Of a stretch of 64,000 nt of DNA, positions 28,197 to 45,662 are shown piece by piece. Position 1 is the first letter of the stretch. Every line of letters starts with the position of its first letter. The notes below the pieces were generated by a model. That model was not told the DNA's origin. It searched no databases and worked only from the letters and a program-made list of their open reading frames with translations. Position numbers and translations under genes: made by a program. The DNA comes from Candidatus Saccharimonadota bacterium. Lineage in GTDB: Bacteria > Patescibacteriota > Saccharimonadia > Saccharimonadales > UBA4665. The stretch covers positions 124,001-188,000 of the forward strand of contig JAGXIT010000004.1 in assembly GCA_024635495.1 (NCBI GenBank), written 5' to 3'.

Positions 28197-28214
28197 TGGC
28201 TCCGGGGACTGGAT
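28197..28214 (+). repeat. 18-bp direct repeat of the tRNA-Asn 3' end (putative left att site)
   Basis: TGGCTCCGGGGACTGGAT is identical to 45588-45605, which is the acceptor stem, CCA and part of the T arm of tRNA-Asn read on the plus strand. Flanking bases differ on both sides. A partial tRNA 3' end in the same orientation is the usual scar of site-specific integration. Confidence 0.65.
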
Positions 28215-30111: not shown

Positions 30112-31710
30112 ATGGATTTACTGCTAGCGCTAGCCCCAATTATCGTTCTGATCACTCTTATCTTGGTCTTCAAAAAGAGTGTGATTTTTTCTGCATTTAC
30201 CGCACTTTTATCTGTTGTGTACATCGTTCTCTTCAGGGGGGTCGAGGTAGCGACCGTGCTCGCAGCGATGACGAGAGGTGTTTTTGTAGCTTCCGAGATA
30301 ATACTGATTGTTTTTGGGGCGATTGTTATGCTCTACGTCGTGCGCGCCAGAGGGCTGTTAGCCCATGTACAAAGGCTTTTTATGGATTTGTCGGCAGACT
30401 ACCGGGTACATGTGTTGCTTGTGTCTTTTGGGGTTGTGTATTTTATTGAGGGAGTGGCTGGTTTTGGTACACCTGCCCTTATTGCAGTGCCGCTTTTTAT
30501 CGCGCTTGGTTTCAAGCCGCTGTGGTCTGTTGCGCTTGCGCTGATCGCAGATAGCATACCGGTGAGCTTTGGGGCGATTGGCCTACCTGTTATTTTTGGA
30601 ATTGGCTCTGTTGTTGAGCCGCTCTCGGCAGAGCCCGAATTGATTACCTCACAGGTTTCGATATTAATAGCGGGCATCAATATTGCCTTGACTGTACTGC
30701 TAGCGTTGGTGCTCGTAGCTACGGCGGTTCGTCAGCGAGACGGTAGTTTGCGGCATTTCACAGAGTTTATTCCGTTTGCGGTTTTTAGCTCTCTTGCGGT
30801 GTCGGTTCCCGCTTTTGCAGCCGCGTATTTTATTGGCCCTGAGCTGCCATCTGTAATAGGTGGACTGTCCGGCATGTTGGTAATTGGCTATTTGGCACAT
30901 CGACACATTGGTACCCCCAAGGACTCTCGTGATGCCGCTGTTGGTCCTGCAGAGGTGCGGGCCGAAGAGAAGGATATTACCCGTGAGGATAGCGCACTTA
31001 TAAAGGCCGTGTCGCCGTACGCGCTTCTAGTGCTGCTACTCGTCTTAACGAGGTTGCCGTATCTTCCGCTGGGCGATTGGCTCAAGAGCGTGGCTGTTGG
31101 CGATACGTCGTTATTTGGCTCCTCTATTCCTTACTCCATCGCGCCGTTATATTCTGCCGCAACAATACTACTGGTATGTGCGGTATTTGCAATATTTATT
31201 TTTCGCAAGCTTATTAATACAAAAGAAATCATATCGAGCGCTGTTTATGCAGTGCAGCGTCCGTTTTTTGCACTGCTATTTGTGCTTATGTTTGTGCAGG
31301 TGTTTATCTATTCAGAAACTGCAAGCCAGGCTTCGCTGCCGGTGATTATAGCGCAGATACTGAGCGAGACGAGTGGTGCTTTTTGGCCGTTTGTCGCTCC
31401 GTTTGTTGGCGCGCTCGGTGCATTTGTGGCAGGAAGCGCGACGGTTTCAAACTTGATATTTTCTGGTTTACAGTACGACATTGCGCTGTCGTCGCAGTTT
31501 AATATTGCCCTGATGCTCAGTCTTCAGGCTATGGGTGCGAGCTTTGGCAATGTCATAGCGTTGCATAACGTAGTCGCCGCTTTAACAATAGCTGGCTTGA
31601 GTGAACGATACAGCCACCGTATAATTCGCGGCAATCTTACACCAATGATGATTATGTTAGTTGTGTTAGGCGCAGTTGGGCTACTAGCAACGGCGATTAT
31701 TTATTCGTAA
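30112..31710 (+). CDS. lctP: L-lactate permease family transporter
   Basis: A 532-aa membrane protein with about thirteen helices. IEGVAGFGTPALIAVPLF, GFKPLWSVALALIADS, VSFGAIGLPV and the C-terminal VAGSATVSNLIFSGLQ and MGASFGNVIALHNVVAA blocks are diagnostic of LctP-family (LctP/GlcA) carriers for lactate and glycolate, using proton symport. It could export or import lactate in a fermenter that also has acetate kinase. TATACT at 30097-30102 lies nine bases before the ATG with no Shine-Dalgarno, so the mRNA is probably leaderless. Inside the predicted island but close to its less certain left end. Confidence 0.93.
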   Translation: MDLLLALAPIIVLITLILVFKKSVIFSAFTALLSVVYIVLFRGVEVATVLAAMTRGVFVASEIILIVFGAIVMLYVVRARGLLAHVQRLFMDLSADYRVHVLLVSFGVVYFIEGVAGFGTPALIAVPLFIALGFKPLWSVALALIADSIPVSFGAIGLPVIFGIGSVVEPLSAEPELITSQVSILIAGINIALTVLLALVLVATAVRQRDGSLRHFTEFIPFAVFSSLAVSVPAFAAAYFIGPELPSVIGGLSGMLVIGYLAHRHIGTPKDSRDAAVGPAEVRAEEKDITREDSALIKAVSPYALLVLLLVLTRLPYLPLGDWLKSVAVGDTSLFGSSIPYSIAPLYSAATILLVCAVFAIFIFRKLINTKEIISSAVYAVQRPFFALLFVLMFVQVFIYSETASQASLPVIIAQILSETSGAFWPFVAPFVGALGAFVAGSATVSNLIFSGLQYDIALSSQFNIALMLSLQAMGASFGNVIALHNVVAALTIAGLSERYSHRIIRGNLTPMMIMLVVLGAVGLLATAIIYS

Positions 31711-32153
31711 TACTGGTTAGCCTGTATTCAGTATAGGCGTAACTCGATACAATCGAATCTGTGCCATAAAAAACTTAGGGCACATGAAAGTGCACTACGC
31801 TGGGCTTATATAGATTCAGAAGATGAGGGATTTATCGTTGAAAGTTGTTCTCTTGGCTGGGCATTCGAGATTAGAACCGGTTATGGAACCTGGTCACTTT
31901 TTCGGGCGCTTGGTTTCTATGTAGAGAACTGGTCACTAACGAAACCTGCCGTCAGAGGTGAAACGTAAAAAACCGCCATTTCTGACGGTTCCAACGTTTT
32001 GCCAGTTGTTTGGGCTGACTATTTTTCTTGCTCGAACAAGAAGTTAATGGGGGAACAGGTCATGGAACCTGGTCAGCCCTTTTCACTGCTTGGTCTGGCT
32101 CACAACAATAGAGGAAGTTATAACTGCAATTAAGCAAGACTCACTACAAATAA
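31711..32153 (+). other. Intergenic region with direct repeats and an in-frame extension of lctP
   Basis: The frame after the lctP stop stays open for 85 codons (to 31968) without an ATG or ribosome site; it may be a decayed extension or chance. ATGGAACCTGGTCA occurs exactly at 31883-31896 and 32062-32075, with weaker similarity after each copy. CCGTCAGA and TCTGACGG form an inverted repeat near 31950-31996. No gene can be supported. Confidence 0.4.
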
Positions 32154-33083
32154 CTATTGCCTATTGAAGGATTTATTCACGTCAATACACGTTTGTATCA
32201 AATTCCTGAAGCTAGAATTCAATGAATCAGCGTAGATCTCTACATCGAAATTTCCTTTTGCACCGTTCGGCAATTCTGTGAAGGATTTATCGAGGAAATC
32301 AAGTGCGAAACGCGCTTTTTCGAGAGTTCTTTCCGCGTCTCCAACGTCTTTTATGTTGTCATACCTTTCCCTTAAACCTTTTTCAATGTCGACTACTTCT
32401 TGCCTGATCGTTCTCAAGCTAAAATCAGTCATTGCCGCACGATCAGAGGTATCTCCATAGACCCAACTATATAACTTCTCAAACGCGTAACCTTGATTGT
32501 CCTCACTCAGCTGATCGGTAAACTTCTTCACGTAATCCGTCCTTTTTAATTTCATTTCTTTAAGAATTCGGTTTAACGAATCGATTATATACTTTCGATT
32601 AACCGTTATTGCTTGATTAAGATTGATTGATTCCGTTGAGAAGTTCGGATACGTCCATGCCATGATCGACTCTTCCCCTACAGTTACCCGTGCAATGCCA
32701 TGATAGGTAGTTGCGCCGTCGCGTTTGTACTTATGGTGACCAAAGTACTTGTTTCGGAGCTCTCTAATTCCTCGTGCATCCGGGTCGGTCGAAATATCTA
32801 TTTTGTTGAGCTTGAAGCCTTCAGCGAAATTTCTTACTGCATCCTGTTGCATAAATATAGCTTGGAAAAGCCCATATATTTTAAGATACTCGAGTCCTTG
32901 ATTTGAAGAACTGTTTCCATTTTTATAAGCCTGAATTGCAAATGATGTGTCCTCGATCGTATCCATAGCCGCCCACATCAAGTCCCAATTCAGATCAAAT
33001 CGTTTTATGTTTTCTATAAAAATTGACGAACTTGCTAAGTCGCGTATTTCTCGACATACATCTTCAATAGATTTCTTAGGCAT
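32154..33083 (-). CDS. HEPN-like protein, partner of the SEC-C/PD-(D/E)XK-like protein
   Basis: About 309 aa, almost all alpha-helical. RELRNKYFGHH (around residues 107-117) contains an RxxxxxH motif (Arg110-His116) within a helix-rich region, as in HEPN ribonucleases of toxin-antitoxin and abortive-infection systems. The C-terminal half has long charged helices (RTIRQEVVDIEKGLRERYDN). The start is the ATG at 33083, which overlaps the stop of the upstream gene by eight bases (ATGCCTAA); a longer frame from 33149 runs inside that gene and is unlikely. Translational coupling to the 812-aa protein and the position beside a type I restriction system suggest a defence role. HEPN assignment is by motif only. 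Confidence 0.7.
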   Translation of the reverse strand: MPKKSIEDVCREIRDLASSSIFIENIKRFDLNWDLMWAAMDTIEDTSFAIQAYKNGNSSSNQGLEYLKIYGLFQAIFMQQDAVRNFAEGFKLNKIDISTDPDARGIRELRNKYFGHHKYKRDGATTYHGIARVTVGEESIMAWTYPNFSTESINLNQAITVNRKYIIDSLNRILKEMKLKRTDYVKKFTDQLSEDNQGYAFEKLYSWVYGDTSDRAAMTDFSLRTIRQEVVDIEKGLRERYDNIKDVGDAERTLEKARFALDFLDKSFTELPNGAKGNFDVEIYADSLNSSFRNLIQTCIDVNKSFNRQ

Positions 33084-35514
33084 GCTTTTTACCGTGACAA
33101 TTTTTAAATCGTAAATTTGAACCGCATGGGCACATTTGGTTACGTGCAATTTTCATTCCAGATAATTTTTCATTCAGGCTTTTTTCTATCTGTGCTTGAG
33201 CTTCGACGATTTGATCCTCGGTATAATCTCCGATATTAATCTCATCGATGCTGGTGACTTTCAAGCCATTTGTTAGCTCTATATTCACTGACAACCACCT
33301 ATCTAGACCTATATTGCGCATATAGCCTGCAAGGCGTTGATGTTCCGATTTCAAGGTACCTACCGGAACATGACCGATACTAATGCCCACTTTCATATCT
33401 GGTGAACCTATTCGTAAAATTCTACTTCCTTTAGCTCCTGGTTGGCTAAGCACTCTCTGAAGATGTTTAGTTATGCTTTTACGCTGGCTACTGTCGCCGC
33501 CAAGCAATATAGATCCTACTTCAAATCGATGAGGTAGATTAGATGACTCCAAAGCATCAATTAAAATACGCATCTCTTTAGGTAATTTTTGTTCGGGACG
33601 ATCCGGATTATCACCACTCATTTTGTCCATAAAGTAGCGATCGATAGGAAGGCTGTAAGCGTTGAAAAGCATCATCGTAGCCGAATTATCGATATTATTA
33701 TGGTAATAATTCATCGCATTGTATAAGGCGACATGATCGATCTCGTCACTTTGAGATAGCGCTTTATTTTCGGCGGCTTCAAGCCTTACACGTAAGTAGT
33801 GGCTAAACTCCACACTCTTACCGTCAAAAAGCTCTGCTACTGCCCTTAAGTCGTCTGTTGATACATGCCACGGCATATTTTCGTTCAATGTAGGATCTAA
33901 TACCGATAGGCGAGTCAGTCTCGCTCCTATCCAACCTAAACTCTCGCGTGTAACCACTACTCTGATGACTTTACGGAATTTGCCAACCTCAACACTATGT
34001 AGCACTTTCTTACCGGTCTGGTCATAAAAGTCCACTTTATCGGCAGATCTAATATACCGTTCTGCCCTTTCGGACTGTCGCTGGCCTTCGAAGATAAGGT
34101 CTTTTAGGTCGTCTTCGATCGAGCCAGGCGCTCCCCTTGCTGCACCCGCAGATATTCCTCCAGATTTCACTTCCACTAGTATTAACGTATCGTCTGCCTC
34201 AAGCAAGCCGTCGAGCTCAGTCGGACTACCGTTATCATCAGGATTTGGGTAGTAAAGATTAAGCGCCTGATAATCAGGCTTTAAAATGCCTGAAAGTAAC
34301 CTTATGGCTTCTGCCTCTATGTAGTCCGATCGAACTTTTTCAATCGATGAGCGTTGTTTGGGAAATTTTTCATTCAAATCATTTTGAATAATCTCAGCTA
34401 TTCGGTCTTCGAAGCCTGCATGGTAAAAAGTATAGAATTTCCCGTCAACTTCTAAGAACGGCTTATAGTGCTCCACATCAGTCGATAGTGGGCTCAGGTC
34501 CTCATGATTATCACCAGTCAATTTACTGAGAGGGTTTTCTCCGGGCTTTACAGAAAGTAAGCTAAGCGCACTTTTAGGGAGCGATGATGCATTGGATATT
34601 TCGAATAAATCAACCGTCCATGCGGCTGATACCTTCTTGTTTGCATCTTCGTTTAATTGCTTTAGTTCGTCGATTTCTTCTAGCTGCTTTTTATAATTCT
34701 CAGGATCGTTCTCATCAAGACCTAATTCTTCGGCTCGCTTGCGAAGCCTATTCACTGCTTCCATGCTGCTTAAATGTTTTGCCATTATGCCGCGTTTCTG
34801 GAATTCGCTTATCTCGCTTAGTCCTTCTATCATTCCTTCGGCATCAATTCCGTATGCTTTAATTAGCAGATTATTATAGGGAGTGAGCGACTCTCTCCAA
34901 TAGTCTTCCTGAAAATTCGGAAATCTCATTACACGGACGTTAAGCCTCATCTGGTCAATCATTTGAACTAATCCATCTGTTTCAGATGGCGGGCTATTTT
35001 TCGTCGGCCTCGTCATTAAATAGCTTAGTGTAGTTTCATTAATGTCGGTTAATCTTGCCCAAATGTCTTCGAGCTCTTGGTCGCTGGGCCGACTGGCATC
35101 CTTTACTGCAGGCGTCCTGGCGATTAGATACTGGAGATATTCGATATTCGGCAGAACCTTGCCTTCAGATACATTCATTTCGCTTTCAGTCTTACCCTGC
35201 ATCAGGAGGCCTAATGCCTTATAGCCCGCGTAGTGCATCAGCTCGAGGGGATCGTACTTGGAAATTTCAGCTTGGAGGCCTTTGATCTTGGCTTCCATGT
35301 CTTTAAGCAACTCTTTATTAGCAGCTTTTGCATTCGAGAGTATCTGGGATTGTTGCGTGGGAGTAGCGTTATTTTGCATCACCACGAGCTTTCCAGACCT
35401 ATAGACTTCGAGCGGACCTTTAGAAAAGTAATCATCGACGGGAAGTCTACCGCTCAAACGCTGAGCTTCACGTTCGAGTCTACGTCTTTTATTAGTCTTT
35501 TTTCGCCTATTCAT
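33076..35514 (-). CDS. Large SEC-C protein with a PD-(D/E)XK-like motif, unknown defence-type gene
   Basis: An 812-aa protein. The N terminus is very basic (MNRRKKTNKRRRLEREAQR); residues about 50-300 are helical with a probable coiled coil near 250-295. SPTELDGLLEADDTLILVEVKSGG (Asp435, Glu448-Val-Lys450) is a convincing PD-(D/E)XK nuclease core, followed by a QRQSERAERYI helix as in restriction-like folds. The last 18 residues are a SEC-C metal-binding motif (CPCGS, then CHG). SEC-C is found on SecA and on accessory proteins that bind nucleic acid or other partners. I know no named system with this exact layout. The HEPN-like gene overlaps its stop, and hsdR lies 74 bp upstream. Confidence 0.75.
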   Translation of the reverse strand: MNRRKKTNKRRRLEREAQRLSGRLPVDDYFSKGPLEVYRSGKLVVMQNNATPTQQSQILSNAKAANKELLKDMEAKIKGLQAEISKYDPLELMHYAGYKALGLLMQGKTESEMNVSEGKVLPNIEYLQYLIARTPAVKDASRPSDQELEDIWARLTDINETTLSYLMTRPTKNSPPSETDGLVQMIDQMRLNVRVMRFPNFQEDYWRESLTPYNNLLIKAYGIDAEGMIEGLSEISEFQKRGIMAKHLSSMEAVNRLRKRAEELGLDENDPENYKKQLEEIDELKQLNEDANKKVSAAWTVDLFEISNASSLPKSALSLLSVKPGENPLSKLTGDNHEDLSPLSTDVEHYKPFLEVDGKFYTFYHAGFEDRIAEIIQNDLNEKFPKQRSSIEKVRSDYIEAEAIRLLSGILKPDYQALNLYYPNPDDNGSPTELDGLLEADDTLILVEVKSGGISAGAARGAPGSIEDDLKDLIFEGQRQSERAERYIRSADKVDFYDQTGKKVLHSVEVGKFRKVIRVVVTRESLGWIGARLTRLSVLDPTLNENMPWHVSTDDLRAVAELFDGKSVEFSHYLRVRLEAAENKALSQSDEIDHVALYNAMNYYHNNIDNSATMMLFNAYSLPIDRYFMDKMSGDNPDRPEQKLPKEMRILIDALESSNLPHRFEVGSILLGGDSSQRKSITKHLQRVLSQPGAKGSRILRIGSPDMKVGISIGHVPVGTLKSEHQRLAGYMRNIGLDRWLSVNIELTNGLKVTSIDEINIGDYTEDQIVEAQAQIEKSLNEKLSGMKIARNQMCPCGSNLRFKNCHGKKHA

Positions 35515-35588: not shown

Positions 35589-38500
35589 TCATAATTTATT
35601 GCTCGAGATGTCGAAGAACTTACTGAAGAATGCCGATAGCCTATCGAGTACAGTCTCGCGCTTCCTTCCCCGCACCTGGTCTGGGCTGAATCGTGATACA
35701 GGTGGCATTATTCTGCTGATGGCCGTGCCACTGGTTTGAACATTGCCGTCACGGAATGCGTTTTCGATAAACTTGTAAGTCTCGTCTTTATCGAGATTTT
35801 CTTCTGCAATGATCCTATCAAGTTCCTCAATCTTCTTAGAATTAACGAAGCTCTGCCAATCATCATCTACAGAAGATTCAGCATTGATCGAACTGATAAA
35901 TTGCTCAATAAGCTCTTTCTTATTTCGCAGCTCAACGCTCGAATCAATCGCTTTGTTAATATCAACGAGCAGCTCTTTGTCTTCTTGATTGCTGGCGTGG
36001 TATTTACGGATAAGCTCAAGAATATAGTCGATATTGATTTCGACCTGCTTAATTAGCTCCATTTCAAAAACTAGATCATCATTGATGTTTTCTTTGTCGC
36101 CGTCATCAACCTTACGTCGCTCTTCATAGAAATTGATGTACATGCTGTGGTAGTCCTGCACATCTCGATCGGATAGTATCTCACGTCCAGCGAAATCATC
36201 AAAAGTCGTGAGTATATTTTTAACTTTCAAAATAGCACCATATAACTTGATGAACTCGGCCTGATTCTGTTCACCTATAATTGGTTCACCCACCGGGAAT
36301 CGGTCCGTCAGCTCAGATACGAGATCAACGTAGCCTTTAACTGGTTTGCCGTTGTCGTCATAGCCTTCGTAGTATTCACGGAATGACTTCAGAAGTACTA
36401 TCCCACTTGCTTCCTTATCGCCAAACAATGAGAGTGAATCATTCGTTGCCTTTTCTAAGTTACGGAAAGTAACGATATTGCCGAATGTCTTTATCGAATT
36501 CAATATGCGGTTAGTACGTGAGTAGGCTTGTAATAGGCCATGCTGTCGCAAATTCTTATCTACCCATAGCGTGTTCAACGTCGTTGCATCAAATCCTGTG
36601 AGGAACATATTCACGACGATAAGTAGATCAATCTCGCGGTTCTTCATTCGCAAACTTACGTCTTTATAGTAGTTCTGGAATTTATCAGAGGATGTATCGT
36701 AATTAGTGCCGAACATCTTGTTGTAGTCATCTATCGCACCATCTAAGAAGTCGCGTGAAGACTTATCTAGACCTTCAGTGCTATCGGAATTTTCATCCTC
36801 AAGACCGTCCAACTCGTCGTCAGCTTCATTCGCTCCATAGCTGAATATTGTTGCGACTTTTAGACGTGCTAGTTCTGGCACTTCAGCCTGTTGCTTCTTG
36901 AACTCTGTGTAGTATTGTTTCGCGACGTTAATCGAACTTACTGCAAATATTGAATTGAATCCACTTAAGCGAATCTTTTCTTTTACCTCTTCGATGGCAT
37001 TACGATCACGGGCTGAAGCTGCTTCGTGCACGTTAGCAAGGCGAGTATAGGCATACGGCTTGCTGTTACGCTTAGTCTTCTGGTTGAAGTGTTCACGAAT
37101 GTACTGTACGACGTTAGAGATACGCTCTGGTGCAGCCAAAGCACTCTCACGATCTATATCCCTAACTTGCGATTCATCAACCTCATCGGCTTCACGAATG
37201 GTGCGAATATAATCAATGCGAAACGGCAACACGTTCTTATCAGTAATCGCATCAACGATAGTGTAAGTATGTAGCTTCTCACCGAAAGCCTGTTCGGTTG
37301 TCTTCAGATCGACTCTACCACCACTAGATGAATTCTTAGCGAAAATTGGCGTACCAGTGAAACCAAATAAGTGATACTTTTTGAAGCTGCTCGTGATTGC
37401 ATGATGCATATCACCAAACTGAGAACGGTGACACTCATCAAAAATGATTACGATATGATCGCCAAATATCTCGTGATCTTCGTTCATCTTTACGAACTTA
37501 TCGAGCTTCTGAATCGTGGTGATGATGATACGAGCGTTCGGGTCTTCAAGTTGTTTTTTAAGCTTAGCGGTACTCGTATTGCTGTTAGCGGCACCTTTTT
37601 CGAACTTGTCGTACTCTTTCATTGTTTGGTAGTCGAGGTCTTTACGATCAACTACAAACAATACCTTATCCACGTATGACAATTTACTTGCAAGCTGTGC
37701 GGTCTTAAAGCTCGTCAGCGTCTTGCCTGACCCCGTCGTATGCCATATGTAGCCACCAGCTTCAATCGTGCCGAGCTTTTTATAGTTGGTCGATACTTCG
37801 ACTCTGCTCAATATTCGCTCAGTAGCAACAATCTGGTATGGTCGCATTACAAGTAGTGAACGATCGCTCGTAAATACACAGTATTTTGTAAGAACACTTA
37901 GTACCGAGTGCTTAGCAAAGAACGTCTGCCCGAAGTCCATTAAGTCAGTGATCGGGCGATTATTCGCATCAGCCCACCAACTCGTAAATTCGTAGCTATT
38001 ACTCGTCTTCTTACCTCGCTTTTGTTTTGTCTCACTGGCTTCTTTGATGTGCTGGAATCGTACAGTGTTGCTGTAATATTTCGTGAGAGTACCATTACTT
38101 ATTACGAAAAGCTGAATATATTCGTATAGTCCGTTATCTGCCCAGAAGCTATCTCGCTGATAGCGGTTTATCTGATTGAAGGCTTCTTGCAGTGCAATTC
38201 CACGACGCTTTAGCTCTACGTGAACCAATGGCAGTCCATTTACTAGAACGGTCACATCATAACGGTTGGCGTGGTTGCCTTCGGTTTCATATTGGTTAAT
38301 GACCTGCAAGCTGTTGTTATGAATATTCGATTTATCTATGAGGTAGATATTTTTTACTTCACCATTGTCGCGAGTCAGTAGCTGTACATGATCTTCTTGA
38401 ATCTTTGCGGTCTTTTCTTCGATGCCTTCATTTTTGTTGGCTATGGTAGTAACAAAAAATCGCTCCCATTCAGTGTCGCTGAACTGGTAATTGTTGAGCT

Positions 38501-38705
38501 TTTCAAGCTGAGTACGTAAGTTGTTGGTTAGATCAGCATCGCTTGTGATATTCAAAAAGTCATAGGCTTGAGATTCGAGTAATTTAATAAACGCCTGTTC
38601 TAGATCAGCTTCACTCTGATAGTTCGTTGCACGAGTCTTAGCAGGAGTAAACTCACCAACTACGGTGCTGTTTGAATTCTCGGCAACCATACTGAACTTG
38701 TTCAT
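35589..38705 (-). CDS. hsdR: Type I restriction enzyme R subunit
   Basis: A 1038-aa subunit in the usual order. The N-terminal nuclease has Asp150 in RYDVTVLVNG and Glu164-Leu-Lys166 in VELKRRG; the translocase has Walker A TTGSGKT (about 323-329), FDECHRS (about 423), GFTGTPIF and the later helicase motifs through NMFLTGFDATTLNTLWVDKNLR. The C-terminal region binds the methylase. It translocates and cuts DNA at a distance from unmethylated sites. The start overlaps the hsdS stop by four bases (ATGA). The whole frame is intact, so the system is probably active. Confidence 0.97.
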   Translation of the reverse strand: MNKFSMVAENSNSTVVGEFTPAKTRATNYQSEADLEQAFIKLLESQAYDFLNITSDADLTNNLRTQLEKLNNYQFSDTEWERFFVTTIANKNEGIEEKTAKIQEDHVQLLTRDNGEVKNIYLIDKSNIHNNSLQVINQYETEGNHANRYDVTVLVNGLPLVHVELKRRGIALQEAFNQINRYQRDSFWADNGLYEYIQLFVISNGTLTKYYSNTVRFQHIKEASETKQKRGKKTSNSYEFTSWWADANNRPITDLMDFGQTFFAKHSVLSVLTKYCVFTSDRSLLVMRPYQIVATERILSRVEVSTNYKKLGTIEAGGYIWHTTGSGKTLTSFKTAQLASKLSYVDKVLFVVDRKDLDYQTMKEYDKFEKGAANSNTSTAKLKKQLEDPNARIIITTIQKLDKFVKMNEDHEIFGDHIVIIFDECHRSQFGDMHHAITSSFKKYHLFGFTGTPIFAKNSSSGGRVDLKTTEQAFGEKLHTYTIVDAITDKNVLPFRIDYIRTIREADEVDESQVRDIDRESALAAPERISNVVQYIREHFNQKTKRNSKPYAYTRLANVHEAASARDRNAIEEVKEKIRLSGFNSIFAVSSINVAKQYYTEFKKQQAEVPELARLKVATIFSYGANEADDELDGLEDENSDSTEGLDKSSRDFLDGAIDDYNKMFGTNYDTSSDKFQNYYKDVSLRMKNREIDLLIVVNMFLTGFDATTLNTLWVDKNLRQHGLLQAYSRTNRILNSIKTFGNIVTFRNLEKATNDSLSLFGDKEASGIVLLKSFREYYEGYDDNGKPVKGYVDLVSELTDRFPVGEPIIGEQNQAEFIKLYGAILKVKNILTTFDDFAGREILSDRDVQDYHSMYINFYEERRKVDDGDKENINDDLVFEMELIKQVEINIDYILELIRKYHASNQEDKELLVDINKAIDSSVELRNKKELIEQFISSINAESSVDDDWQSFVNSKKIEELDRIIAEENLDKDETYKFIENAFRDGNVQTSGTAISRIMPPVSRFSPDQVRGRKRETVLDRLSAFFSKFFDISSNKL

Positions 38706-39961
38706 GCTGGTAGCTCCTGAAATGTTAATAGCTTATTGCTATAATATTCAAATTGCTCGCGTCGAGAAATCAGTTCTGACGGAATGCCCACAGAATCGTC
38801 GCTGACAAGATCGTCAAGCTTATCTAACAATCCAACAATTTTATTCTGGTCCTCAAGAGCTGGAACGCGAACAACAAACTTCTCCAGCGTTCGCATACCT
38901 AGATTTGGCTGCGAGCCATGGCTTGCTTTCTTTTTCACTTGTGTTTGGATTAAATTACTTCTCAGCAAATGATATAAAAATCTTGGATTATTGGAGCTAT
39001 TAACCCTCATTGCTGCAATCGGAGACCAAATATTGAAGTCTTCGTCAAAATTCACCATAGCTACTTTCCCAGTAGTTGAACCAGACTTCACCATGAAAAC
39101 ATCACCTTTCCGGGGTTTATACTTTTTTGCACATATAACGTCGTATTCCTTAGTAATATATCCGCGTTTTTTATCAAAATCTATTCTGCCGTCATGAATT
39201 GCTTCTGCTGAAATAAACTGCACACCTTGTTCGACAAAATTAGGGGTTTCATGCGGACCGTCAGAAATTGGCTTAGCAAGCATATCGAGAACCGTCATTT
39301 CCGGCCAGTTCTGATTACTGATTGTTTTTTCTAAGTAATATTCGTACTGTTTTTTTCGCGCTTCCAGCTCATCCTTTAACTTAGTTTCAAGCTTTGTGAA
39401 TTTATCGAGGATATTTACAATCTCTTCTTGCACTCCTAGCGGAGGAATGGGGATTATGATTTTTGCAAAGCGCTTTTTAGATATATTAAATCTAGTGACT
39501 CCACTTGCCGTCTTGGCGATTTGCTTTCTGATGCCTGTGTCCCTGAATAGATATTTTAGAAATTCAGGCATGAATATATCATTATCATGTAAACGAAAAC
39601 CGAAACAGAAACTATTTAAGTAAAGTGGTTCCTCGGTATCTTCTATTAGTACAGATGACATGCCACATTCTTCAGGGTTCTCTGACGAACCCGTAAATAT
39701 AACGTCACCTTTTTTTAGTTGGTGCTGCTTTTCTTGGGGTCCTATCTTTACGAAATCGTCTCTGCTTGCGTCAATCGCTATATTTGAATAAACGTTCATA
39801 TATGTAACGTATCTAGCGTTACCATCTTCGAAGTCGCCTTTTGATTTACCAGACATTCCTCCGTAAAGCGTGCCCAATTCGTCTAGTTCTTTGAACGCAA
39901 CACCATTTGGACAAAAGTCCTGAATAAGCTTTTCAATGCTACTCACCCTTATCGCCTTCAA
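38702..39961 (-). CDS. hsdS: Type I restriction specificity subunit
   Basis: A 419-aa S subunit with two target-recognition domains, each followed by a long helix: IPIPPLGVQEEIVNILDKFTKLETKLKDELEARKKQYEYY after the first, and VRVPALEDQNKIVGLLDKLDDLV after the second. These conserved helices act as molecular rulers separating the two half-sites and bind HsdM. The bipartite site cannot be read from sequence. The gene overlaps hsdM by 23 bases and hsdR by four, so all three subunits are translated in a coupled manner. The first TRD keeps GTLYGGMSGK and FTGSSENPEECGM, the second SDGPHE. Confidence 0.95.
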   Translation of the reverse strand: MKAIRVSSIEKLIQDFCPNGVAFKELDELGTLYGGMSGKSKGDFEDGNARYVTYMNVYSNIAIDASRDDFVKIGPQEKQHQLKKGDVIFTGSSENPEECGMSSVLIEDTEEPLYLNSFCFGFRLHDNDIFMPEFLKYLFRDTGIRKQIAKTASGVTRFNISKKRFAKIIIPIPPLGVQEEIVNILDKFTKLETKLKDELEARKKQYEYYLEKTISNQNWPEMTVLDMLAKPISDGPHETPNFVEQGVQFISAEAIHDGRIDFDKKRGYITKEYDVICAKKYKPRKGDVFMVKSGSTTGKVAMVNFDEDFNIWSPIAAMRVNSSNNPRFLYHLLRSNLIQTQVKKKASHGSQPNLGMRTLEKFVVRVPALEDQNKIVGLLDKLDDLVSDDSVGIPSELISRREQFEYYSNKLLTFQELPA

Positions 39962-41522
39962 TCTCCGCTACAATCTCGTCTATCTCAGTACGGAGTACGT
40001 TTTGTTTTTCAACGATGCTAGAGATGCTTATGTTCAGCTCGGTGATGTCGGTTGCAACGGTGGTGTCTAGCTCGTCGATATAGCTACTGACTGCGAGGTT
40101 ATAGTCATTTTCTGCGATCTCGCTATTTGGTACGAGCTTACCAAAATGTTCGATGTCTTCACGGTTCGTGAATGCTTCGAGTACTTTATCTTGGTTTGCT
40201 TGGCTAAGTTTGTTTTTATTGCCACCACGTACAAATTCTGCACTAGCGTTAATGAATAGCGTTGAATTATCTTTCTTGCTCTTTTTTAGCACCACAATAC
40301 ACGTTGAGATAGTGGTACCGAAGAATAGGTCTGGCGGAAGCTGAATAACAGCATCGACAAAGTTGTTATCTATTAAATACTTACGAATCTTAGCTTCTGC
40401 ACCACCTCGATAAAGCACACCTGGAAATTCAACTATCGCAGCAGTACCGCTAGTCGAGAGCCAATTAAGAATATGTAGCGTAAATGCTAGATCAGCCTTG
40501 CTCTTTGGTGCTAAAACCCCTGCTGGTGCAAAACGAGGGTCATTTATTAACAGTGGGTTCGCGTCGCCTTCCCAATTTATAGAATATGGTGGATTAGAAA
40601 CGATCGCATCAAAAGGTTCGTCGTCCCAATGAGCTGGATCGGTTAATGTGTCACCGTGAGCAATATCGAACTTCTCGTAATTGATGTCGTGCAAATACAT
40701 GTTAATTCGGCAAAGGTTGTATGTCGTGAGGTTAATCTCCTGCCCAAAGAAGCCTTGTCGCACGTTCTCTTTGCCAAGAACTTTAGCGAACTTCAAAAGT
40801 AATGAACCTGAGCCACATGCAGGGTCATAAACTTTATTTACTTCTTTCTTGCCTACTACAGTGATTCGAGCGAGAAGCTCACTAACTTCTTGCGGAGTAA
40901 AGAACTCACCACCAGATTTACCTGCTGATGATGCATACATGGTCATAAGGAATTCGTAAGCATCACCGAACGCATCGATAGTATTATCTTCATAGCGTCC
41001 TACTTCGAGACTACCAATAGCATCGAGTAGCTTTACGAGTCGTTCATTACGCTTGGCAACTGTTTGTCCTAGCTTGCTGCTGTTAACATCGAGATCGTCA
41101 AAGAGCCCTTTGATGTCATCTTCGCTGTCAGCACCCTTAGCAGAGTTCTCAATGTTACGGAAAACACCAGATAAGATTTCGTTGAGATTTTCTTCGTTCT
41201 TGGCACGCTTGCGAACATTCTCGAATAGCTCGCTCGGTAAAATGTATAAACCTTTTTCTTTGACAGTATCTTCTCGTCCAAACTCTGCTGCATCGTCGCT
41301 CAAATCAGCGTAATTGAAGTCATCAGCACCTGTACGACGCTCTTCAGCGTTAATGTAGTTGCTAAGGTTTTCAGATATAAAACGATAAAACAGTATGCCA
41401 AGAACATACTGCTTAAAATCCCAACCGTCTACTGAGCCGCGTAGGTCATTTGCTATCTTCCAAATTGTGCTGTGTAATCGTGCTCGTTCTTGTTCTTTTT
41501 TTGTGTCAGTGAGTGTTGTCAT
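39939..41522 (-). CDS. hsdM: Type I restriction-modification DNA methyltransferase subunit
   Basis: A 527-aa N6-adenine methyltransferase. An N-terminal helical HsdM_N domain (WDFKQYVLGILFYRFISENL) is followed by DPACGSGSLLL (SAM motif I, about residues 234-244) and SNPPYSIN (catalytic motif IV, about 310-317). It protects host sites and is required for restriction. The ATG at 41522 has TATAGT eleven bases upstream and no Shine-Dalgarno, suggesting a very short leader. First gene of the operon hsdM-hsdS-hsdR; the SEC-C/HEPN pair could be transcribed from the same promoter, because no strong terminator separates it from hsdR. Confidence 0.97.
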   Translation of the reverse strand: MTTLTDTKKEQERARLHSTIWKIANDLRGSVDGWDFKQYVLGILFYRFISENLSNYINAEERRTGADDFNYADLSDDAAEFGREDTVKEKGLYILPSELFENVRKRAKNEENLNEILSGVFRNIENSAKGADSEDDIKGLFDDLDVNSSKLGQTVAKRNERLVKLLDAIGSLEVGRYEDNTIDAFGDAYEFLMTMYASSAGKSGGEFFTPQEVSELLARITVVGKKEVNKVYDPACGSGSLLLKFAKVLGKENVRQGFFGQEINLTTYNLCRINMYLHDINYEKFDIAHGDTLTDPAHWDDEPFDAIVSNPPYSINWEGDANPLLINDPRFAPAGVLAPKSKADLAFTLHILNWLSTSGTAAIVEFPGVLYRGGAEAKIRKYLIDNNFVDAVIQLPPDLFFGTTISTCIVVLKKSKKDNSTLFINASAEFVRGGNKNKLSQANQDKVLEAFTNREDIEHFGKLVPNSEIAENDYNLAVSSYIDELDTTVATDITELNISISSIVEKQNVLRTEIDEIVAEIEGDKGE

Positions 41523-41945: not shown

Positions 41946-42179
41946 CTAGTAAGTTGTAACAAAATTAAATGACACTTTGTTGCGACACTCCATGGCGTAT
42001 GTCATCTTCGCTGCAAACGCTGGATCATTGTTCATGTGTCTGTAATAAGTGACCCTGCTGATTTTTGCCCACTTACAGGCATCAGTCACACTGTAATTAT
42101 TCTTCAGGGCGTCTGCTAACTTCACCATAGTCCTTATATTCATTTTTGTGGGTCTTCCCACGGGATTATTAAAAAGCAT
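41946..42179 (-). CDS. Small helix-turn-helix protein
   Basis: A 77-aa protein. After GRPTKM, common at the start of phage and transposon HTH proteins, the segment TMVKLADALKNNYSVTDACKWAKISRVTYYRHMNND forms a clear helix-turn-helix of the homeodomain/terminase-small-subunit type (helix, turn after DACKWAKIS, recognition helix RVTYYRHM). It probably binds DNA near the integrase, as repressor or excision factor. AAGGAG lies just before the ATG at 42179. It is divergent from the 289-aa gene by 73 bp, a typical regulator/target layout in integrated elements. Confidence 0.78.
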   Translation of the reverse strand: MLFNNPVGRPTKMNIRTMVKLADALKNNYSVTDACKWAKISRVTYYRHMNNDPAFAAKMTYAMECRNKVSFNFVTTY

Positions 42180-42252: not shown

Positions 42253-43122
42253 ATGATAAACAATCTTATGAAAGCTACAAACAAGACACCACAAACCAAT
42301 GACTATGCGGTAGCAAAAGCACTAAATGATTTAGTCAAAGGAATAATATTGCTCGTGTATATAGGAAATGGACAGGATTTGGCGAAAGACGGCGATATTG
42401 CGGGGCTGAATCGTGCATACATTCTCTTAACCCAAGAGCTTGAAAATATATACTCACTTAATCCAGAGCTTCAAGACCTAAAGCCAGACCCGATTTGGAA
42501 GCGTTTCGATGTGCTAAAGGGCTCAAGGGAGGCTATAGCGGATTACATAAATGATAGTGATGACTATGGTGATGCACATTGTCTAAGGGTAGAAAAGCTA
42601 AGTATCATCGCAGGTGTTGAGCTGCCCGAATATACGGCCGACCAACTGGAATTGGCTAAATACGCCGATGTCACAACAGAAGATTACGTAAAAAAGCTTA
42701 AGAAAACTTTGAAAAGTAAAAAAAGCTCTGCCGAAGTCACGTATGGATCGGAAATCTTTGAATACGGCCTAACCTATAAGCAAGACGGAACTATCCTCAT
42801 AAACCAAGTATTGAAACTCAAGAAAGTACATGCAGGGTCTATTACTGAAAAGCTGCTAGAACAATCAATCAAGAATCCCAATAAAAAGTTCAAGCCAGAT
42901 CTAGGAAAGACATCTAGAAATATCAGCACAATAATTAGTAGTGCTGGCTTTACACCCGTTCTAAGAGATTTGTTTTTCCCATCTGTCAGTGGTGACACCG
43001 TTGTATTTCGCCCGTATGTATCTAAATTACAAGCAGATCTTGAGCGTATAGACAGAGATGAACTTGATTTAAAACTGAAAGAACTCGGTGCTTTGTGCCG
43101 AGTCGTATTTGAACCAAACTGA
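42253..43122 (+). CDS. Unknown island protein, 289 aa
   Basis: A soluble, lysine-rich 289-aa protein. Residues 1-130 are helical (VAKALNDLVKGIILLVYIG, LTQELENIYSL). The C-terminal half contains SAEVTYGSEIFEYGLTYKQDGTILINQVLKLKKV, likely beta strands, then a basic helix-rich region ending KELGALCRVVFEPN. I see no enzyme motif. The position, divergent from the HTH gene and upstream of small genes and the recombinase, suggests an element-maintenance function such as replication or excision. The ATG at 42253 has AGGTG upstream. The gene is followed by GAACC repeats and a hairpin. Confidence 0.65.
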   Translation: MINNLMKATNKTPQTNDYAVAKALNDLVKGIILLVYIGNGQDLAKDGDIAGLNRAYILLTQELENIYSLNPELQDLKPDPIWKRFDVLKGSREAIADYINDSDDYGDAHCLRVEKLSIIAGVELPEYTADQLELAKYADVTTEDYVKKLKKTLKSKKSSAEVTYGSEIFEYGLTYKQDGTILINQVLKLKKVHAGSITEKLLEQSIKNPNKKFKPDLGKTSRNISTIISSAGFTPVLRDLFFPSVSGDTVVFRPYVSKLQADLERIDRDELDLKLKELGALCRVVFEPN

Positions 43123-43265: not shown

Positions 43266-43415
43266 ATGTTAACAAATAAAAAGCTCATACAAAGGTTTCA
43301 AGAGCTTCACATATCAAAGTACGGAGTAGAAATAAGCTACGAAGTAGCTGAACATCAGTTAAAAGAGTTAGCGGAGCTAATACGTCTCACTACGAAAGCT
43401 GAGGCACTGAAATGA
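43266..43415 (+). CDS. Small island protein, 49 aa
   Basis: An ATG at 43266 with AAGGGG at good spacing opens a 49-codon frame whose TGA overlaps the next ATG (ATGA). The product is a helical, charged polypeptide (MLTNKKLIQRFQELHISKY, then EVAEHQLKELAELIRLTTK), probably two amphipathic helices. The tight coupling and strong ribosome site make it a credible gene. It is similar in style to small accessory regulators next to recombinases, such as excision factors, but no homology can be claimed. Confidence 0.65.
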   Translation: MLTNKKLIQRFQELHISKYGVEISYEVAEHQLKELAELIRLTTKAEALK

Positions 43416-43786
43416 AAGCTTTCAATGTAGAGGCAGAGTACCACATGGCACTAGTGAAGATGGGTGCACATAGGGTCAAGATAAAAGTACTTGATCCTGA
43501 AATAGCTATGTACATAAACGGTATGGTTGTATTTCCACCCGATGGAGACAAACACCCAGACTGGACTGTGTACACGCCAAAAGCTGGTAACGCTCGTATT
43601 GTTGAGTTCGCAAAAAGCTCAACCTTATGGAAGGAGATCCACGAAGCATGTATCGATGCGGTCAAGCTCGAGGAATCCTACAAGGATATGAATAAGGTCG
43701 ATGACATGAAGAAGTACGAAAACATGTCTGAGGAAGAATTTAACAAAGATTTCAAAGACGAATTAGATAGGGTCTTTCCTGACTAA
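43412..43786 (+). CDS. Unknown island protein, 124 aa
   Basis: A 124-aa acidic protein. The first 75 residues appear as beta strands (AEYHMALVKMGAHRVKIKVLDPEIAMYINGMVVFPP, then DWTVYTPK), which could form a small barrel or OB-like fold, followed by a charged helical tail (YKDMNKVDDMKKYENMSEEEFNKDF). No family is recognised. It is translationally coupled to the 49-aa gene (ATGA). It precedes the serine recombinase by 205 bp, with a long imperfect inverted repeat between. Confidence 0.65.
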   Translation: MKAFNVEAEYHMALVKMGAHRVKIKVLDPEIAMYINGMVVFPPDGDKHPDWTVYTPKAGNARIVEFAKSSTLWKEIHEACIDAVKLEESYKDMNKVDDMKKYENMSEEEFNKDFKDELDRVFPD

Positions 43787-43991: not shown

Positions 43992-45629
43992 ATGTACGAC
44001 AAAAATTTACAGAACTTACGCTATCGCTTATATGCCCGTAAGTCTACGGACACAGAAGATAGGCAGGTTCAATCGCTCGACGATCAAGTAAAGTACATGA
44101 AAGAGATAGTAGAGCAGCAAGGACTGCACATAATCGGCGATCCGATTTACGAATCTAAGTCAGCAAAACGACCCAACAATCGTCCACAATTTACAGCAAT
44201 GTTAGATGAAATTGAGTCTGGCGAAATTGATGGGATTATATGCTGGAAAATTGATCGACTATCACGCAACCCTACTGACAGTGGCCGCATCCAGCAACTA
44301 TTACAAGACGAAAAAATAAAACACATTCTAGCTATGGATAGGAGCTATTTCCCAGAGGACAACTCTATAGTATTTAGTGTTGAAGCTAGTCAAGCAAACG
44401 AGTATGTCCGCAAACTAGCTGTTGATACTAAACGTGGTATGCAGTCAAAAGCCGAAAAAGGAGACAAACCTGGTGTACCACCAGTAGGCTACTTAAATGA
44501 CCGGATTGAAAAAAAGGTAATCGCTGATCCTGATCGATTTACTTCAATGCGAATACTTTGGGATAAAATGCTTACAGGTACGTATTCTATGGCACAGCTA
44601 GTTCATGTAGCCGACAAAGAGCTGCATATAACTACACCAATACGAGGCAAGACGGGTGGAAAGCCAATTGCTTACTCTAGCCTTTGTGTATTGTTCAAGA
44701 ATCCGTTCTATACAGGACAACTTCCATTTAAGGGTCAGCTCTATCCTGGTAATCATCCTGCAATGATTACTGAAGAAGAATTTGAAAGAGTACAGCAGAT
44801 TATTGATCCGTCCCATACAACTCGCCCAAAAGACAAGACATATAACTTTCAGCTACGTAATTTATTCCTCTGTGGCGAGTGTGGTTTCGCAATCACTGTT
44901 GAGCAGAAGCAGAAACTCATAAAATCAACTGGTGAGACTAAGACTTACATCTACTATCACTGTACGGGCAAAAACAAGAACATAAAATGTACTCAACCAA
45001 AGACACATGTTTCGGAAGACGAGTTGCTTAGACAATTGAAGGAAAAGCTGACTAAATTCACGATCGACCCAGACTTTTACGAGTTGGCAATTGAAAGATT
45101 AGCTCAAGAAGAAGATGAAGTCGTAGAAAAGAACAATACCAAGACACTAGCTCATGAGAGGGCTATTAAGAAAACTGAAACGTCTATAACAAATCTACGT
45201 CGCATGAGGTACTCAGGCGAAGCAGATGACGACTCGTGGTACTTCGCTGAAGTACAGACCCTGGAAGATGAACTAGAACGATTACAGAACGCACGTAATA
45301 AAGATGAGTACAGAGCACGTAACTGGCGTGCTGTAGCGGATGAAACATTCACGTTTGCTCGTTACGCAAAAGAAGACTTTGATGGTGATGACTTAGAGAA
45401 GAAACGTTCTGTCGTAATGAAGCTAGGAGAAAAGCTTACGATTTTGGATAGAACTATCCAATTTAACCCTAATAAGTACTTCATTCCGCTTGAGCAAATG
45501 ATTGAAAACGAAAAGCAAGCTAGAGAAATGGTTAGAACCGACGATTTACAGATAAAAACCCCTGCCTTTCAGCACGGGTCTCTATCATGGCTCCGGGGAC
45601 TGGATTCGAACCAGCGACCTAAACGTTAA
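43992..45629 (+). CDS. Large serine recombinase (site-specific integrase)
   Basis: A 545-aa large serine recombinase. The catalytic domain has YARKSTD (nucleophile Ser near residue 17), WKIDRLSRN with the catalytic Arg, and EASQANEYVRKLAVDTKRGM leading to the recombinase domain. A zinc-ribbon domain follows with LCGECG and HCTGKNKNIKC, then a long coiled coil (about 370-440). The last residues GLDSNQRPKR are encoded by the antisense of tRNA-Asn, so the natural C terminus was probably altered or supplied by the integration site. It should catalyse integration of the island at the tRNA 3' end. No Shine-Dalgarno doubt: GGAAA lies before the ATG. Confidence 0.93.
   Translation: MYDKNLQNLRYRLYARKSTDTEDRQVQSLDDQVKYMKEIVEQQGLHIIGDPIYESKSAKRPNNRPQFTAMLDEIESGEIDGIICWKIDRLSRNPTDSGRIQQLLQDEKIKHILAMDRSYFPEDNSIVFSVEASQANEYVRKLAVDTKRGMQSKAEKGDKPGVPPVGYLNDRIEKKVIADPDRFTSMRILWDKMLTGTYSMAQLVHVADKELHITTPIRGKTGGKPIAYSSLCVLFKNPFYTGQLPFKGQLYPGNHPAMITEEEFERVQQIIDPSHTTRPKDKTYNFQLRNLFLCGECGFAITVEQKQKLIKSTGETKTYIYYHCTGKNKNIKCTQPKTHVSEDELLRQLKEKLTKFTIDPDFYELAIERLAQEEDEVVEKNNTKTLAHERAIKKTETSITNLRRMRYSGEADDDSWYFAEVQTLEDELERLQNARNKDEYRARNWRAVADETFTFARYAKEDFDGDDLEKKRSVVMKLGEKLTILDRTIQFNPNKYFIPLEQMIENEKQAREMVRTDDLQIKTPAFQHGSLSWLRGLDSNQRPKR
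45588..45605 (+). repeat. Right copy of the 18-bp att direct repeat
   Basis: TGGCTCCGGGGACTGGAT, identical to 28197-28214, here as part of the intact tRNA-Asn gene. Marks the right end of the island. Confidence 0.65.
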
Positions 45630-45662
45630 CAGCGTCCCGCTCTACCACTGAGCTACCCCGGA
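45588..45662 (-). tRNA. tRNA-Asn (anticodon GTT), CCA encoded
   Basis: The minus strand folds into a full cloverleaf: acceptor TCCGGGG/CCCCGGA, D arm GCTC/GAGC, anticodon stem GGACG/CGTTT with loop CTGTTAA (anticodon GTT), variable AGGTC, T arm GCTGG-TTCGAAT-CCAGT, discriminator G and encoded CCA. Its 3' half is overlapped by the end of the recombinase gene on the other strand and serves as the attachment site. Confidence 0.95.

Follow-up and report, generated by a model that had tools for sequence, protein, structure and literature searches.

A 64,000-nucleotide stretch from a Candidatus Saccharimonadota bacterium (contig JAGXIT010000004.1, positions 124,001 to 188,000; hereafter the window) encodes two overlapping genes directly downstream of a type I restriction-modification (RM) system. 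We named their products P0001, a large nuclease-like protein, and P0002, a HEPN-like protein. An initial annotation of the window had proposed the pair as a candidate new defence module, and its coordinates for the genes and for their eight-base overlap were correct. The pair has the following features, where pLDDT is the predicted local distance difference test score and aa stands for amino acids.

33076-35514, minus strand: P0001, 812-aa PD-(D/E)XK nuclease-like protein with a helical N-terminal half and a C-terminal SEC-C motif; ATG start
33940-34362, minus strand: predicted PD-(D/E)XK core of P0001, residues about 385-525 (E400, E433-x-D435, E448-x-K450, Q480-x2-R483), from invariant columns, helix-strand order, pLDDT and VIA-align
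33088-33144, minus strand: SEC-C zinc-binding motif of P0001, residues 791-809, CPCGSNLRFKNCH; Pfam PF02810, E 4.3e-6
33076-33083, minus strand: overlap of the P0001 and P0002 genes, 8 bp
32154-33083, minus strand: P0002, 309-aa HEPN-like protein, judged from its sequence a probable RNase partner; ATG start
32736-32756, minus strand: R110-N-x4-H116, HEPN-type Rx4-6H motif of P0002, conserved in four diverged sequences

The open reading frame (ORF) caller extended P0002 to a TTG at 33149. The ATG at 33083 was preferred because the relative in a second genus of the same family (genome G500) begins at the same place.

P0001 starts with a basic N terminus (MNRRKKTNKRRRLER), as the initial annotation had described, and long helices at residues 225-263 and 271-297 of its structural model fit the coiled coil proposed there. 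Residues E400, E433, D435, E448, K450, Q480 and R483 were invariant in two alignments, one with 9 sequences and one with 10. They include the restriction-type motif of the initial annotation (Asp435, Glu448-Val-Lys450), which lay at exactly the positions given. In the comparison with eight plasmid relatives, these residues made up most of the invariant positions; the others, few in number, lie in the next segment. The same core residues were retained in a partly independent set of sequences, taken from viral and genome contigs. The PD-(D/E)XK residues hold at about 20-27% identity, across Bacteria and on an archaeal plasmid.

An AlphaFold2 model of P0001, built from a 10-row alignment that left out plasmid and whole-genome homologues, had a mean pLDDT of 70 and a predicted template modelling score of 0.68, with most of residues 380-450 at 82-92. 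The order of elements was a helix (385-411), three strands (415-423, 431-440 and 443-450), a helix (463-488) and a strand (515-522). The strand at 443-450 ends in the E-x-K motif and D435 lies on the strand at 431-440; E400 is in the preceding helix and Q480 in the following one. According to the model, the middle of P0001 is a PD-(D/E)XK core of the right topology with the motif residues in their usual places, and metal-dependent nuclease activity is predicted. A Foldseek search with the model returned nothing below E 0.001. VIA-align was run on the Foldseek matches only, and its top ranks were nucleases: Nt.BspD6I (Z 10.8), the small subunit of R.BspD6I (8.9), AF1548 (8.6) and Card1 (8.0). 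XisH-like proteins, Can2, McrC, EndoMS and SduA followed with Z of about 7. All of these Z values are moderate. The C-terminal SEC-C motif, also part of the initial annotation, scored 26.9 bits against a curated PF02810 cut-off of 20.4, shows the CxCGS...C(H/C) pattern and matched by sequence the SEC-C chains of SecA and YchJ in the PDB. The Pfam scan of P0001 found no domain other than SEC-C.

Relatives of P0002 were found in G500 (54% identity), on a Marinobacter plasmid (24%, E 9e-13) and, as a shorter protein, on an Acinetobacter plasmid; HEPN searches in viral contigs found nothing. R107, R110 and H116 were invariant across these four diverged sequences, in agreement with the Arg110-x5-His116 motif first noted, and the residue after R110 was N, N, N or H. 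The rule for the HEPN superfamily is Rx4-6H with a polar residue after the arginine (PMC3710099), which R110-N111-x4-H116 fits. P0002 is a candidate HEPN-type protein, with a putative RNase activity. Since this assignment is based on the motif and on helical content, we named the protein HEPN-like only. On the Marinobacter plasmid pMAQU01 (L112, 1992-8256) the P0002 relative has a SIR2_2 gene on one side and a weak Abi_alpha match on the other, and the nuclease is absent.

In G500 both genes are present, with 62% (nuclease) and 54% (HEPN-like) identity and a 4-bp overlap. There the pair lies among ordinary chromosomal genes, with a GC content of 43% versus 51-54% for most flanks, and no RM genes are near it. 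The nuclease core occurred in 4/295 genomes of the order and the HEPN-like protein in 2/295. Both HEPN-carrying genomes, the window genome (G000) and G500, were the two with a close nuclease, and this 2/2 co-occurrence would be expected by chance with odds of about 1 in 43,000 if the genes were independent, phylogeny ignored. No close copy of either gene was detected in the other genomes of the order, and no further pair in the 93 genomes of the family. Between the two pairs, the rates of non-synonymous change (dN) were 0.33 and 0.38 and synonymous change was saturated; third codon positions differed at 64.5% and second positions at 22-26%. The combination of saturated synonymous and limited non-synonymous change indicates purifying selection on both genes. 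Because a second genus has both genes, again overlapping, we regard the pair as a real unit.

An overlapping two-gene layout with a HEPN-type motif, on an integrative island and with relatives on plasmids, would also suit an addiction pair resembling a toxin-antitoxin system, with stabilisation of the island as its role. One of the proteins (the HEPN RNase or the nuclease) would then be toxic and the other would restrain it, with phage defence secondary or absent. We consider this very unlikely: an 812-aa catalytic protein is atypical as an antitoxin, the gene sizes differ from those of MNT-HEPN pairs, and the nuclease is found alone on many elements and hence needs no partner.

The nuclease belongs to a much wider family. 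Matches to the full 812-aa query were mostly SecA-like proteins, hit in their SEC-C tails, and other small SEC-C proteins. The motif also took up most of a genome-contig scan with full-length P0001, in which just two long homologues came up; a core-only alignment was used afterwards. With tblastn, relatives of P0001 were found in 12 plasmid records at 22-26% identity, three of which cover at least 80% of the query. Their hosts are Photobacterium, Bradyrhizobium, Aliarcobacter, Rhizobium, Exiguobacterium, Lactococcus, Arthrobacter, Rhodococcus, Gordonia and the archaeon Halobaculum, and RefSeq labels them SEC-C metal-binding, NERD or hypothetical. The SEC-C motif is missing from the homologues of Exiguobacterium, Halobaculum, Arthrobacter and two further genomes (G549 and G538), and is therefore common in the family but not essential to it. 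In G549 and G538, which hold the most distant relatives, Q-x-K replaces E-x-K, as read by eye. In the homologue on the Lactococcus plasmid pUCCL637D (L028, 4137-7497), an IS30-family insertion splits the SEC-C end into an annotated ORF of its own. No P0001 homologue was found in 50,697 phage records, and a DNA-level search with the Photobacterium gene gave no match in 5,426 E. coli genomes.

On viral contigs, where gene roles were read from translations, homologues occupy prophage-like settings, one beside tail genes and a repressor-like gene (L119) and one beside head genes (L129). Three further homologues (L118, L130 and L131) have an integrase nearby or directly in front of them. The Aliarcobacter homologue adjoins a Lit-type Peptidase_U49 phage-exclusion gene, and that of Bradyrhizobium is near a gene of the AbiEii/AbiGii family. 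Prophage hotspots holding anti-phage systems have been documented (PMC9122126), and the positions of the wider family are typical of defence cargo. A DUF5677 protein is encoded beside the Rhizobium homologue (L026, 2858-4423), and the G549 homologue has a DUF5677-like fragment next to it where the contig ends (L122, 10000-10299); DUF5677 may be a further partner that recurs in the nuclease family. Both were considered for the role of HEPN partner, and the profile comparison of the Rhizobium protein with the HEPN alignment gave nothing.

Homologues also occur on conjugative plasmids, and in Lactococcus the homologue has recA and a gene for a Y-family polymerase nearby. PD-(D/E)XK nucleases serve in repair too, and EndoMS was among the structural neighbours, all of which would agree with a housekeeping or mobile-element role (DNA repair, element processing or transfer) instead of defence. 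We regard such a role as extremely improbable, given that the patchy spread (four genomes among the 295 of the order), the varied carriers and the restriction-type cargo of a sister island (see below) fit defence better, and that there is no constant mobility partner.

The gene pair is carried by a genomic island, as the initial annotation had recognised. Its other features in the window are as follows.

28197-28214: second copy of the attachment site (exact, 18 nt), at the far end of the island
35589-38705, minus strand: hsdR, type I restriction subunit (HSDR_N, EcoR124_C, TIGR00348)
38702-39961, minus strand: hsdS, specificity subunit
39939-41522, minus strand: hsdM, methyltransferase subunit (TIGR00497)
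42253-43122, plus strand: 289-aa accessory protein of the island, function unknown; counterpart in the sister island of genome G484 74% identical
43412-43786, plus strand: 124-aa accessory protein of the island; counterpart in the G484 sister island about 41% identical
43992-45629, plus strand: large serine recombinase; relatives at 76% (G484) and 71% (G488)
45588-45662, minus strand: tRNA-Asn (gtt), integration site (ARAGORN)
45588-45605: copy of the attachment site (exact, 18 nt), at the 3' end of the tRNA

The 3' end of the recombinase gene lies inside the tRNA-Asn gene, of which the last 18 nt (TGGCTCCGGGGACTGGAT on the plus strand) are duplicated exactly at 28197-28214. This duplication at both ends delimits an island of about 17.4 kb, and the recombinase, tRNA and duplicated 3' end identify the element as a tRNA-integrated genomic island. 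Its cargo consists of a lactate permease, the nuclease-HEPN pair, hsdMSR and two small genes, in addition to the recombinase. In genus relatives the right flank and the tRNA-Asn are syntenic and the left side differs, so none of them offered a clean empty site. The closest recombinase relatives in a family-wide search (G484 and G488) both end in tRNA-Asn. The G484 sister island (L153, 1258-18864, on G484:C5) resembles ours in its recombinase (76%), its terminal tRNA-Asn and the shared 289- and 124-aa genes, and differs in an unrelated cargo: a GHKL-ATPase, Z1, DUF4420 (a putative PD-(D/E)XK protein), AIPR, a C5-methylase and an AspBHI/Mrr-type endonuclease. As this cargo is restriction-type, this recombinase family moves restriction-type cargo. 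No homologous cargo was present in the G488 region.

The genes hsdM-hsdS-hsdR are upstream of the pair on the same strand and gave full-length profile matches, which makes them a type I RM system, and 74 bp separate the end of hsdR from the start of P0001. The position directly behind hsdMSR was thus as first described. A link to type I RM exists here and in G538, where the distant homologue overlaps hsdS in an hsdR-hsdM-hsdS operon, but it is not obligatory, as the G500 pair has no RM genes.

Several further observations were made on the islands and related loci. The L-lactate permease gene (30112-31710) is an unusual metabolic cargo beside defence genes within the att-bounded island. A 77-aa ORF next to hsdM (41946-42179) weakly matches an Sf6-type small terminase subunit (helix-turn-helix) and is possibly a phage remnant or regulator. 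Just behind the P0002 gene, at 32097-32123, and in loci L160, L161, L162 and L143, a conserved stretch encodes WLTTIEEVITxIKQD in one frame. This peptide is the C terminus of another serine recombinase (ORF 383-2035 in L161). The stretch was found in 4/7 genus genomes, usually behind an unrelated gene, with three copies within 1.6 kb in G464, and it may be a scar left by a second recombinase when it carried cargo in. The 27-nt repeat at 32097 was also considered as a structured RNA element and rejected, having no stable fold. The G484 sister island additionally has SRAP and Y-family polymerase genes. In the G538:C7 cluster (L123, 765-12649), another defence-island-like cluster, a sacsin/NO VEIN-type 1021-aa protein is encoded upstream.

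Our best reading of these data is that the nucleases form a mobile defence family without a name, joined in one clade by a HEPN partner. The large nuclease would be the effector that is conserved, to which the HEPN-like protein would add an RNase layer. We infer the defence role, DNA as the substrate, the RNase activity and the control of one protein by the other. In the mechanism we propose, P0001 would be the core of the system, its helical N-terminal half and SEC-C tip holding or sensing the target and its PD-(D/E)XK domain cutting nucleic acid, most likely invading DNA. P0002 would act as a metal-independent HEPN-type RNase, probably kept inactive by the nuclease and released once infection engages or defeats the first layer, whereupon translation would stop. 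That the unit follows a type I RM system on its tRNA-Asn serine-recombinase island suggests that it adds a layer to that system. Since the G500 pair occurs without RM genes, the controlling partner, if there is one, would more likely be P0001 than HsdR. That the pair works in this way, as an operon-coupled module against phages or plasmids that moves horizontally, seems to us reasonably probable. As the catalytic residues of P0001 are defined, the idea is directly testable.

Some points weigh against this reading. The evidence at the level of the pair comes from two genomes. P0002 had no match in Pfam, PADLOC, NCBIfam, PHROGs or the PDB sequences, and its single-sequence AlphaFold2 model, mostly helices, had a pLDDT of 35 and gave no usable fold, so that of the HEPN identity initially proposed, the conserved motif and the predicted helices stand and the model and the profile searches add nothing. 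Moreover, none of 19 more distant nuclease homologues had a P0002-like neighbour when their neighbourhoods were searched with the HEPN hidden Markov model. In 14/19 of these neighbourhoods at least 1 kb downstream was visible (less than 1 kb in L123, L128, L129, L130 and L131). HEPN pairing, the basis of the coupled unit in the initial annotation, holds in 2/2 close members and is not a property of the whole nuclease family. These stand-alone nucleases, together with the Marinobacter and Acinetobacter plasmid relatives of P0002 that occur without the nuclease, led us to consider that the nuclease alone is the defence effector and that the HEPN gene was added later, in this clade only, and rides along with a role apart, as a toxin of its own or a regulator. 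This we regard as rather unlikely, because the genes overlap in both carrier genomes and the pair was kept together across genera. For the coupled module, the observation underlying the initial annotation was confirmed and its interpretation partly supported: the proposal of a new defence module agrees with the lack of a named-system match and with the restriction-type cargo of the sister island, the defence role itself being read from context.

If true, this would add a family of defence nucleases that reaches across several bacterial phyla and onto a haloarchaeal plasmid, and whose sole annotation is 'SEC-C metal-binding domain-containing protein'. It would also add a two-layer DNase/RNase version in ultra-small bacteria, a group with little-known phage defences, and it points to a tRNA-Asn island family in this bacterial family that exchanges restriction-type cargo. 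A tentative, more far-reaching view is that an undescribed, broadly spread family of single-protein anti-phage nucleases (helical sensor, PD-(D/E)XK and SEC-C) on plasmids and prophages turned into a two-component DNase-RNase system in one ultra-small bacterial family by recruiting a protein of an undescribed HEPN family. We hold this to be plausible, short of probable.

In line with the initial annotation, which knew of no named system with this architecture, the body of P0001 matched none in PADLOC-DB 2023, NCBIfam 2026, Pfam or PHROGs, where matches were restricted to the SEC-C region or far below the cut-off. P0002 matched no named system in PADLOC-DB 2023 or NCBIfam 2026. A search for literature combining SEC-C with defence, with most subscription papers outside its range, gave no relevant paper. 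The DefensePredictor paper validates 13 PD-(D/E)XK systems, and its main text, as distinct from its supplements, has no mention of SEC-C or NERD (PMC13092281). It is possible that the system was described before under a number, for example as a DefensePredictor DS system.

Among known families, NERD (PF08378) weakly matched 3/10 members of the nuclease family (best E 0.006), and one plasmid homologue is annotated 'NERD domain-containing'; these matches are below Pfam significance, and P0001 itself was unmatched. Shedu SduA (PDB 8ps4/8ps5) is a defence nuclease with a PD-(D/E)XK-type core, and P0001, a putative one, aligned with it at Z of about 7 over 137-159 residues (7.1 at 159 residues). 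The likeness is mostly limited to the common nuclease core, and P0001 has no DUF4263 match. Upx, which we take to be an anti-phage protein, was the only VIA-align match running far beyond the nuclease core of P0001. Its cryo-electron microscopy structure (PDB 9wuf) aligned with Z 8.7 and a root-mean-square deviation of 5.1 for 386 residues over model residues 71-657. Upx differs in its length of 1212 residues, its chain was unmatched by phmmer or profile search, and common arrangements reach the same Z range. With a moderate Z and no detectable sequence similarity, it is a lead and not a classification.

Two of the closest known arrangements combine HEPN proteins with RM systems, to which HEPN genes of at least 16 clades are linked (PMC3710099). 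In the EC042_2821 family, HEPN, winged helix-turn-helix, restriction endonuclease (REase) and Zn-ribbon domains are joined in one protein encoded in R-M operons (PMC3710099). Our pair shares with it the HEPN motif, a REase-fold nuclease and a zinc motif beside R-M genes, but consists of two proteins, with another HEPN subtype that has no Pfam match and with SEC-C as the zinc motif. The established precedent is PrrC behind EcoprrI, where a type I RM system holds the RNase and lets it go when the system is inhibited (PMC3710099). Our locus differs from the PrrC/EcoprrI type in having no ABC ATPase domain and a separate PD-(D/E)XK/SEC-C partner, and in that the G500 pair is without RM, and resembles it in a HEPN-motif protein downstream of hsdMSR on the same strand, where DNA restriction would be combined with a possible RNase back-up.

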